NCBI GenBank assembly: GCA_002897115.2 | Contig: BCIH01000010.1 | Coordinates: 20,545 to 84,544, forward strand | Origin: Prototheca cutis | Lineage: Eukaryota > Chlorophyta > Trebouxiophyceae > Chlorellales > Chlorellaceae | Length of the DNA stretch: 64,000 bases | Direction: 5' to 3' | Shown here: positions 1-22,762 of the stretch, one piece after another | How positions within the stretch are numbered: position 1 is the stretch's first letter | Layout of the letters: each line of letters opens with the position of its first letter | Translations under genes and position numbers: made by a program | Notes under the pieces: model-generated | Seen by the model: only the letters and a program-made list of their open reading frames with translations | What the model was told of the DNA's origin: nothing | Databases searched by the model: none

Positions 1-68
1 CACACACACACCCCACCACCACACACACACTCTCTTAAATCGGCCCAGTACCATCAGACAGCTGTCAC

Positions 69-1615
<1,547 letters not shown>

Positions 1616-6945: not shown

Positions 6946-8489
6946 TGCTGTGTTTCTCTTGTCGGGGACCTGTGTATGTGTGTGTCATCGTGGTCTGGCA
7001 GATGATGCATTTGCATCGTGAGACTCCCAAACGGGGTTCTATCTCTTGTGCATTTGGTGGGCGTGCTCTCCCGCGTCAGACTGATCTGCAAACACTTGGC
7101 CACTACCTCATCTGCAGAGCGGACTGTGCAGTCTGGCGGTCCTAAGGGCGCTCAATCTGCTGCTCACGGCCGCCTGTGTGCCGGTTGTATATGCGGCAGC
7201 TCGCTCCATGGCTTTGGGTGGGGAGCAGACACCCTCCTCCGAGCTGTGGTTCAAGGTGCGACACTAGCCAACTGCTGTTTTGTCTAATGACTGAATAAGT
7301 TGGTCCTTTTTTAATTGGAATGTCGCTCTACTTTTTGCTATCGCTGTGCACGAGTGTGGAGTTGATCGACCCGATACTCATACATGCCCACCAACGCCCC
7401 TTACTACCAAACAAACAACAGACACTTCTGTGCTGTCTGCTGCCCACCCATGCCTTTTTCGGGCTGCTGTACTACACCGATGTGCTGAGCGTGCTGGTCA
7501 CGCTGGCAACATACGTGGCAGCACGAAAAGAGCGACACACTCTCTCGCTGCTCTGTGCTGTGGCCGCTGTCGTGACGCGCCAAACCAACGCGGTGTGGGT
7601 GGCATTTGTGCTGGGTGAGACCCTTTTACGGGAGGCTGGGCTCGAGCGAGGCGCTGCTTCGATCATGAAGCACGGCGGTGTGTTGCCTGCAGAAACTGAT
7701 ACAAAGTCCACCTCGGGATCAAGCGACTTCAAGCCCACCGAAACGACAAGCAGCAGCAGGACGACCTCGCTGGGCGTTGAACTGGGGCAGCTGGTCAACT
7801 GGGCCTGCGAGAGACACACAGTGGCGCGATTTGTCATGCACTGGGCAGGCCACGTGCTACTCTTGCTTGCCTTTGCGGCGTTCGTGACGTGGAATGGCGG
7901 CGTGGCCATTGGCGACCAGGCACATCATGTGCCCTCGCTGCATGCTGCACAGCTCTGCTACCTGGCAGTGTTTGCTGCTCTAGCCTGCATGCCCATGCTG
8001 GCCGGAGCGTGCTGGTGTTCGAAGAGGACTGAGATCCGATCCTGGCCCACACTTGCAGCGCTGACGGCGGGCTGCGCTGTGATTGTTGGGATGACGGCAC
8101 GTGCACACCCGTTTCTGCTGGCCGACAACCGGCACTACACGTTTTATCTCTGGCGCCGGGTGCTGGGCCCGGTGCCATGGGCCTGGGCGCCAGTGTACGC
8201 CGCGGCCTGCACGGCACTGTGGGCGGGCGTGGCGCCGCGGGCCGGGGTGCTCTGGCGCGTGGGGCTGGTGCTGGCCTGCGCCCTAGTCCTTGTTCCCAGT
8301 CCCCTGCTGGAGCTGAGATATTTCACGGTGCCCACGGTTCTGATCATGCTCCGGATGCCGGGGCCCAGACCGGGCTGGGGCCTGGCAGGCATCATGGCCT
8401 TCCTGGCCATCAACCTCCTGACGCTGCACGTCTTCTTGCACCGGCCCTTTGTCTGGCCAGATGGCACAGTCGCGAGATTCATGTGGTAA
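6519..8489 (+). CDS. ALG10: Dolichyl-phosphoglucose alpha-1,2-glucosyltransferase
   Basis: Adds the terminal glucose to the dolichol-linked oligosaccharide in the ER lumen. Exons 6519-6620, 6729-6875, 7118-7255 and 7422-8489 give 484 residues, typical for ALG10/DIE2. The diagnostic [17 protein letters not shown] spans the first splice junction, followed by [24 protein letters not shown] and [12 protein letters not shown] are further family motifs, and multiple hydrophobic segments fit a polytopic ER enzyme. The last exon holds a hydrophilic Ser/Thr-rich insert near residues 235-265. Intron 2 starts directly with a long (GT)n tract. Confidence 0.95.
6876..6944 (+). repeat. (GT)n microsatellite at an intron donor
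   Basis: The ALG10 intron begins GTGTGCGCGCG and continues as an almost pure GT run of about 50 bases, so the repeat forms the 5' splice site itself. Confidence 0.95.
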
Positions 8490-21955: not shown

Positions 21956-22066
21956 ATCTGCAAACGCCAGTTCGAATCTGGCCGGGGCCTTTCAATGAAA
22001 ACGTCGATTCGGATCAAACCGTTTCTCCCGGCTCCGTAGTGTAGGGGTTATCACTGCAGACTCTGA
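21956..22066 (+). tRNA. Permuted tRNA-Gln(CTG) gene, 3' half before 5' half
   Basis: The 3' half (positions 38-73) is at 21956-21990: anticodon-stem strand TCTGC, variable AAAC, T-arm GCCAG-TTCGAAT-CTGGC, acceptor strand CGGGGCC, discriminator T, no CCA. After 39 bases the 5' half (positions 1-37) is at 22030-22066: acceptor GGCTCCG, D-arm GTG...CAC, anticodon strand GCAGA, loop with CTG at 22063-22065. GGCTCCG pairs with CGGGGCC over 7 bp (one G-T) and GCAGA with TCTGC over 5 bp. Flanks GCTGA (21946-21950) and TCAGC (22070-22074) can pair beside the junction, as in a bulge-helix-bulge. The halves total 72 nt with the join at 37/38. U73 suits eukaryotic tRNA-Gln. Confidence 0.92.
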
Positions 22067-22199: not shown

Positions 22200-22206
22200 A
22201 AAAAAA
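22200..22206 (-). terminator. Pol III poly-T terminator of the permuted tRNA-Thr gene
   Basis: Seven T's on the minus strand, 8 bases after the 5' half of the tRNA-Thr gene. Confidence 0.8.
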
Positions 22207-22214
22207 GGTTTGAA

Positions 22215-22301
22215 TACTAAAGTCACGCTCTGCCAACTGAGCTATAGGAGCGAGTAGGTAGGTTGTGCTCCCACCGTGATTTGAACACGGGACCTTGACC
22301 T
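22215..22301 (-). tRNA. Permuted tRNA-Thr(AGT) gene, 3' half before 5' half
   Basis: On the minus strand the 3' half comes first, 22301 down to 22266: A38, anticodon strand GGTCA, variable AGGTC, T-arm CCGTG-TTCAAAT-CACGG, acceptor TGGGAGC, discriminator A, no CCA. After 14 bases the 5' half runs 22251 down to 22215: acceptor GCTCCTA, D-arm GCTC-AGTTGGCA-GAGC, anticodon strand TGACT, then loop bases TTAGTA with anticodon AGT at 22218-22216. GCTCCTA pairs with TGGGAGC (7 bp, one T-G) and TGACT with GGTCA (5 bp, one T-G). Joining at 37/38 gives the normal loop TTAGTAA and a 73-nt tRNA. No 3' half exists downstream of the 5' half, where a poly-T terminator follows. Confidence 0.92.
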
Positions 22302-22762
22302 ATGTAGTTGCTTGTGACGGGACGATTTTCTTACCCCTATATGCTCGTTTGACCGATCCCAGCCTGGCGACTCGCATATCGATGAACGGCGTGATCTGAC
22401 CAGCTTTCAAGCGTCAGGGAGGCGTGGCATCCATCCCAGCTGATCGGTAGAAAAGGACTGTCAAACAAGCTCATGGGAGTGGCCTTTGGCGGGGGCTGAC
22501 CAACGCGACAGCTGTGCACCACCCTGTGGACGGCCCGGCCTCGCTCATCGCCCAGTCCCCGCATTGTCCTCGCCTGCTCGCGTCATTTTGTGCCTAGAGA
22601 GCTTCATGCAGCCGTGTCTGTACATTTTGTAGTGGTCTGGCGCCCACTCGCCGAGGGCAGCAGGGATCTTGCCTGGCGCGGTTGGGCATGGTGGTAACAG
22701 GACCTGCCTTGATCAGGTGACCCTCCCCAGCCAGCAGTGGGCCCTTCCCTTCTCGCGGCGCC
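22302..22762. other. Intergenic
   Basis: No gene seen. It carries the upstream region of the permuted tRNA-Thr gene (-) and the promoter of the NIPA-like gene (+). Confidence 0.5.

Follow-up and report, generated by a model that had tools for sequence, protein, structure and literature searches.

The locus at positions 22215-22301 of the window, the whole 64,000-nucleotide stretch of Prototheca cutis contig BCIH01000010.1 that was analysed, is very probably a type II (37/38) circularly permuted tRNA-Thr(AGT) gene, a functional nuclear gene whose product would mature through a circular intermediate. As a single gene it belongs to a known class; the unusual part is the scale on which genes of this kind occur in the genome. 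The features of the locus, all on the minus strand and given in their order of reading, are as follows:

22338-22341, minus strand: TATA some 40 nt ahead of the 3′ half, a possible upstream promoter element (weak, and spotted post hoc)
22305-22308, minus strand: leader bases ACTA (-7 to -4), able to pair with anticodon-loop positions 33-36 and lying in the predicted splice-site helix (pairing analysis)
22266-22301, minus strand: 3′ half of tRNA-Thr(AGT), positions 38-73, encoded first, with discriminator A (sequence, ARAGORN and covariance model; the same in the second copy)
22277-22287, minus strand: box B, T-arm positions 52-62, located upstream of box A (read from the sequence)
22252-22265, minus strand: 14-nt spacer without a T-run, which in the precursor connects the acceptor stem's 3′ and 5′ ends (the second copy has another spacer, of 9 nt)
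22215-22251, minus strand: 5′ half of tRNA-Thr(AGT), positions 1-37, encoded second (sequence, ARAGORN and covariance model; the same in the second copy)
22233-22244, minus strand: box A (D-arm), TAGCTCAGTTGG (read from the sequence and by pattern match)
22216-22219, minus strand: anticodon-loop positions 33-36 (TAGT), the pairing partner of the leader (pairing analysis)
22200-22206, minus strand: T7, a likely RNA polymerase III terminator eight bases beyond the 5′ half (sequence, and the TTTT trend in the whole set)

The 3′ half thus comes ahead of the 5′ half, both on the minus strand and a short spacer apart, which is the layout of a type II permuted gene and the reverse of an ordinary intron-containing tRNA gene, where the 5′ half comes first. 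When the halves were rejoined in silico, ARAGORN identified the resulting 73-mer as tRNA-Thr(agt) with all stems formed in a complete cloverleaf. The T7 after the 5′ half, together with a spacer free of TTTT, suggests that the locus is laid out as a single transcription unit. An earlier note on this DNA, made from the letters alone, had placed the gene at exactly these coordinates on the opposite strand and had described the 3′ half, the 14-base spacer, the 5′ half ending in the anticodon loop and the seven T's just as they read on the minus strand; the 37/38 junction, giving the loop TTAGTAA, was likewise borne out. Its statement that the acceptor and anticodon stems pair fully stands in that every stem forms, and has to be amended for one U.G pair in each (6-67 in the acceptor stem and 31-39 in the anticodon stem).

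ARAGORN called no tRNA in the raw 64-kb window or in the raw Thr segment, and nothing in the raw window exceeded the Rfam cut-offs, as is expected for a permuted gene. For a covariance model (R1), eight ordinary tRNAs from this genome, none of them Thr or Gln, were permuted in silico, given random spacers and used as the training set; R1 models the 37/38 junction only. Searched with R1, the window returned the Thr gene at 60.6 bits (E 2.4e-14), followed by a tRNA-Gln gene at 42.3 bits (E 2.4e-9) and a third-ranked match at 15.5 bits. Since R1 had not been trained on the Thr gene, a score of this size excludes chance.

The Gln gene is also permuted, and was read from the sequence, by ARAGORN and by R1:

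21956-22066, plus strand: permuted tRNA-Gln(CTG), with the 3′ half at 21956-21990, a 39-nt spacer, the 5′ half at 22030-22066 and T-runs from 22075

The Thr and Gln genes are convergent, with 148 nt between them. A second permuted Gln(CTG) copy (R1 23 bits) was read directly from the sequence of contig C12. Two proteins of the window suggest a green alga close to the Auxenochlorella lineage but distinct from Auxenochlorella: the MFS protein adjoining the tRNA pair shares 49% identity with a protein of Auxenochlorella protothecoides and 46% with a Prototheca wickerhamii protein, and the closest relative of the ALG10 homologue at 7320-8489 is an Auxenochlorella protein (45% identity).

A DNA search with the Thr locus found one additional Thr locus in the assembly (19.9 Mb, 23 contigs), on contig C5. 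The mature sequences of the two copies are identical at 73 of 73 bases and both have a T-run after the 5′ half. Their spacers differ (14 nt and 9 nt), and flanks of about 1.5 kb per side gave nothing alignable except short chance matches. The earlier note had named a standard, expressed tRNA-Thr(AGT) gene of the same sequence, along with no spliced product from this locus, as the refuting finding. No such gene was found: the rejoined 73-mer matches the assembly at these two places only, each time as separate halves in permuted order, and no ordinary-order tRNA-Thr was present among the 17 Rfam tRNA genes over the cut-off (identities by ARAGORN; 63 scored of 246 candidates). Extending the Rfam tRNA search to E values of up to 10 added only four weak matches, all below the cut-off. 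As the genome search scores the best candidates only, a divergent ordinary tRNA-Thr could have escaped it, and the absence of an ordinary source for this tRNA is well supported without being absolute. Neither a permuted nor an ordinary Thr(TGT) or Thr(CGT) came up in the partial census described below.

To count permuted genes, the genome was sampled by short box patterns, and ordinary genes were sought genome-wide with the Rfam model. The box B pattern GGTTCRANTCC occurred at 80 places, against 64 for the reversed control pattern. Eight of these were known ordinary genes, and the other 72, examined in 70 regions, yielded 24 genes in permuted order and one more that is ordinary, Leu(TAG) in L074. 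A second box B pattern, GGTTCRANCCC, occurred at 105 places (100 listed; control 87); among the matches listed were five known ordinary genes (two Lys, two Arg ACG and one Leu CAA) and 92 further regions, which gave seven permuted genes and no ordinary one. Box A, searched as TAGCTCAGNYGG, gave 21 places against 13 for the control. Ten were already found (seven permuted, three ordinary), and the eleven new regions comprised four clear permuted genes, one doubtful case (L190) and six without a recognisable tRNA. A further box A pattern, TGGYGYAGTGG, occurred at 108 places (100 listed); the first 30 examined contained no tRNA by R1 (E up to 0.01) or ARAGORN, and at least three other listed places fall in genes already counted. 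The two Thr and two Gln genes complete the permuted list. In total, this partial census yielded at least 39 permuted genes, which represent 26 species and lie on 14 contigs, against 18 ordinary genes of 11 species:

Permuted, Ala: AGC (three), CGC (two), TGC
Permuted, Arg: TCG, CCG, TCT
Permuted, Asn: GTT (two); Cys: GCA; His: GTG; Tyr: GTA; Val: TAC
Permuted, Gln: CTG (two), TTG; Glu: CTC (four)
Permuted, Gly: GCC (four), CCC, TCC
Permuted, Ile: AAT (two), TAT; Leu: AAG, TAA
Permuted, Met: CAT (taken as elongator); Pro: TGG; Ser: CGA, TGA; Thr: AGT (two)
Ordinary, Arg: ACG (two), CCT; Asp: GTC (three); Lys: CTT (two); Phe: GAA
Ordinary, Leu: CAG (three), CAA, TAG; Pro: AGG (two), CGG; Met: CAT (taken as initiator)

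None of the 37 species found in this partial census occurs in both forms, the two Met genes being presumed to represent different species, an ordinary initiator and a permuted elongator. Examples found in neither form, again in the partial census, are Trp, Val AAC, Val CAC, Lys TTT, Glu TTC, Ser AGA and Ser GCT. The permuted genes are expected to be under- rather than over-counted, because they were reached through a few box sequences and the ordinary genes were sought genome-wide. All 39 are of the 37/38 type, for which R1 and the patterns were built. Seven of seven acceptor pairs form in every one of them and five of five anticodon-stem pairs in 38, the exception (L158) having four. The halves of L041 (Ser) and L178 (Leu), which gave weak or partial R1 matches of 21.7 and 25.3 bits, were read by eye and checked with ARAGORN; in the Leu(AAG) gene of L048, R1 omits the variable arm, and the junction was placed accordingly for the statistics below.

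With 26 of the 37 species found only in permuted form, we consider it likely that nuclear tRNA genes in this alga are permuted by default. If so, most translation would depend on the splicing endonuclease, on a ligase and on tRNA intermediates in circular form, and RNA polymerase III would have to work routinely on templates in which box B comes ahead of box A.

The sequences around the permuted genes are consistent with single transcription units. TTTT follows the 5′ half within 45 nt in 39/39 permuted genes, compared with 7.2% of 765 background 45-mers, and lies inside the spacer in 1/39; the same run is found within 45 nt downstream of all 18 ordinary genes. The one spacer with TTTT belongs to the permuted Arg(TCG) gene of L092, where the run occupies the loop of a GGCGG/CCGCC hairpin that may form there. 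Spacer lengths range from 9 to 80 nt with a median of 13, and are exactly 9 in 11 of the 39 genes; that they are never below 9 nt suggests a minimum size for the acceptor loop. AT-rich motifs of the TATA kind, which were picked after viewing the sequences, occur at -60 to -15 in 15/39 permuted genes and in 29/765 background sequences. One point against our explanation, besides the incomplete splice-site pairing of single genes described below, concerns transcription. According to the text available of a 2014 review on permuted tRNA genes (PMC3978253), a reversed order of boxes A and B should be ill suited to TFIIIC, yet TFIIIC appears to be present, as suggested by a partial Tau95-like exon match in the genome (31.1 bits, over the cut-off). 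The single partial match to PF04182 (25 bits) says little, because the same model also matches 8 of 14 bacterial and archaeal controls.

At eukaryotic 37/38 tRNA introns, position 32 of the anticodon loop forms a pair with the base three places before the 3′ splice site. A permuted precursor has its leader where an intron would have its 3′ end, and leader pairing was compared with this intron register (32:-3). Anticodon-intron pairs and the hBH motif are both mentioned in the part of the review at hand (PMC3978253). Taking one gene per species (n=26), we scored pairing between bases 32-36 of the loop and bases -3 to -7 of the leader, and swapped leaders 10,000 times. Leaders paired with their own loops in 80 of 130 cells, compared with 64.2 (s.d. 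4.2) after swapping, a result equalled in 1 of 10,000 swaps; seven other registers showed no enrichment. Duplex energies of the leader with loop plus trailer agreed, own leaders averaging -6.17 kcal/mol and swapped ones -4.30 (s.d. 0.39), with none of 10,000 swaps as good, and the pairing enrichment was also present with smaller gene sets. In ordinary genes, the three introns compared, those of Asp and two Pro genes, form 4, 3 and 4 of the 5 pairs in the same register. The splice-site (BHB/hBH) pairing thus holds for the 26-species set and is partial in the Thr gene alone, in which 33-36 pair with -4 to -7 and the A-I pair (32:-3), here U.C, is unformed. In the second Thr copy 32-34 pair and 35-36 do not; the neighbouring Gln gene has 2 of 5 pairs in register. 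The genome also contains two PF01974 matches, whose nearest solved relatives are the endonuclease subunits Sen2 (E 2.5e-13) and Sen34 (E 9.2e-11).

By these features, RNA polymerase III would produce one linear precursor consisting of leader, 3′ half, 14-nt spacer, 5′ half and a trailer ending in T7. In its predicted fold the acceptor stem would close over the spacer and the anticodon stem at the outer ends, and the leader, paired with the anticodon loop, would recreate the splice-site motif of a 37/38 intron. Leader and trailer may then be cut off by the tRNA splicing endonuclease (Sen2/Sen34), a ligase would join 37 to 38 to give a circle, and RNase P and tRNase Z would excise the spacer before CCA is added. 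Once deaminated to inosine, A34 would read ACU, ACC and ACA. The text available of the review describes how algal permuted precursors are cleaved at the junction and closed by ligation into a circle still containing the spacer; RNase P and tRNase Z probably then remove that spacer, and CCA is added afterwards (PMC3978253). We infer that this algal pathway carries over to the Thr gene; its transcription, circular intermediate, ligation and end processing, and the charging and modification of the tRNA, are proposed by analogy with other algae.

Three other readings of the locus were weighed. The first takes the halves to be no working gene but a defunct piece of a tRNA, or a tRNA-derived repeat that a rearrangement left behind; the presence of two copies on different contigs would be in keeping with it. 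Conservation of the whole mature sequence between copies whose spacers and flanks have no alignable likeness argues against decay, as do the T-run that each copy retains after its 5′ half, the failure to find an ordinary copy as a replacement when the assembly was searched with the 73-mer, and the recurrence of the arrangement in 39 genes spanning 26 tRNA species; we regard this reading as highly improbable.

More improbable still is a split tRNA, with halves transcribed separately and joined in trans. The halves are physically apart and an isolated tRNA-Phe 3′ half does exist elsewhere (L070), but split genes occupy separate loci or have their own transcription signals, and the Thr halves lie 14 nt apart with no T-run between them. 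In the set as a whole the halves are 9-80 nt apart on the same strand, with TTTT after the 5′ half throughout and in the spacer only once. An assembly artefact, in which an ordinary gene was broken and rejoined in the wrong order, is scarcely credible: the analysis covered a single assembly, but the error would have had to arise in 39 cases on 14 contigs, leaving a spacer of at least 9 nt each time and flanks that mostly differ between copies of one species. The earlier note had argued against chance or misassembly from the two neighbouring genes; with 39 found on 14 contigs, and the Thr score from R1, the argument is stronger. A permuted gene in use thus remains our reading of the Thr locus.

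Permuted tRNA genes are already in print, so the suggestion that the Thr/Gln pair is new in kind finds no support. In the accessible text of the 2014 review, six algae and one archaeon together account for 34 permuted genes, and 11 of 43 tRNA genes are given as permuted, with four junction types, in Cyanidioschyzon merolae (PMC3978253). As far as that text goes, the genes of C. merolae resemble the Thr gene in the order 3′ half, spacer, 5′ half, in the 37/38 junction, in a T-run after the 5′ half and in a TATA-like element upstream, and its table includes permuted Thr(AGT) and Gln(CTG), both species of our window (PMC3978253). Differences are that the 39 genes found here are all of the 37/38 type (for which the search was built) and outnumber the 18 ordinary ones, and that no TFC1 or TFC3 homologue is reported for C. 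merolae in the text available, in contrast to the partial Tau95 match here (PMC3978253). Prasinophytes and the Bigelowiella nucleomorph share with this alga the green lineage and junctions that are nearly all 37/38 (Maruyama 2010, as cited in the available text of PMC3978253). Leu(TAA), Ser(CGA), Ser(TGA), Cys(GCA) and Arg(TCT) are permuted in that set as well as here, an overlap that might hint at a common origin but that by a rough estimate we judge not significant, since 26 of the 37 species found here are permuted. As listed in the same text, that set has 2-6 permuted genes per genome, lacks Thr(AGT) and Gln(CTG), and includes a permuted initiator Met, which by our own assignment is ordinary in P. 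cutis (PMC3978253). Later work, as far as its accessible text goes, reports two permuted genes in the Amorphochlora nucleomorph and none in two Lotharella species.

The nearest relative reported is the trebouxiophyte Auxenochlorella UTEX 250-A, although the best Auxenochlorella matches of the two window proteins noted above, at 49% and 45% identity, indicate a different organism; there, according to the available parts of the report (Plant Cell 2025, PMC12636532; preprint PMC12633428), the tRNAscan-SE set was incomplete and permuted genes were then found. Among the titles and abstracts listed in literature searches, none reports a genome with mostly permuted tRNA genes, although a figure in the Auxenochlorella report may show a similar scale.

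Permuted tRNA genes have hitherto been treated as rarities, with 34 in the 2014 review against 39 in the partial census of this one genome. If confirmed, the finding would mean that permutation, far from a marginal oddity, can turn into the principal arrangement of an essential set of genes. Such a genome would allow tests of RNA polymerase III initiation with reversed internal boxes, of whether the splicing machinery limits translation, and of how ordinary genes become permuted and then duplicate as permuted genes. On the practical side, standard tRNA finders can return badly incomplete sets in such algae.

Several candidates were rejected or reassigned during the census. L074, which ARAGORN called Phe(aaa), is read here instead as the ordinary Leu(TAG) gene with a 37/38 intron, as ARAGORN itself calls the joined exons. 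Left uncounted were a doubtful permuted tRNA resembling Ala(GGC) at L190:198-281 (32.3 bits, poor T-stem); an ARAGORN Ala with a 68-nt intron in L058, whose acceptor stem is mispaired and which vanishes when introns are disallowed; an unusual tRNA-like cloverleaf at L080:204-272, whose anticodon loop has six bases and to which ARAGORN assigns no amino acid; and an ARAGORN Ser call at 172-259 of L200, which overlaps the counted permuted Met gene. In L083 (G000:C13:121951-122776) two permuted Gly(GCC) genes stand in tandem, and ARAGORN joined the 5′ half of one to the 3′ half of the next as an ordinary Gly gene with a 235-nt intron. This call is false, as it spans two permuted genes, and is the mirror of the tandem-duplication origin that has been proposed for permuted genes. 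The tRNA-Phe 3′ half in L070 (positions 38-73, minus strand) lies 107 nt upstream of the 3′ half of a Glu gene and differs from the ordinary Phe gene by one mismatch; T-runs follow it, no recognisable 5′ half lies nearby, and it was not counted as a gene. Finally, the Ala(AGC) genes of L039 and L069 have an identical 13-nt spacer and different leaders, as if the gene had moved as a small unit.
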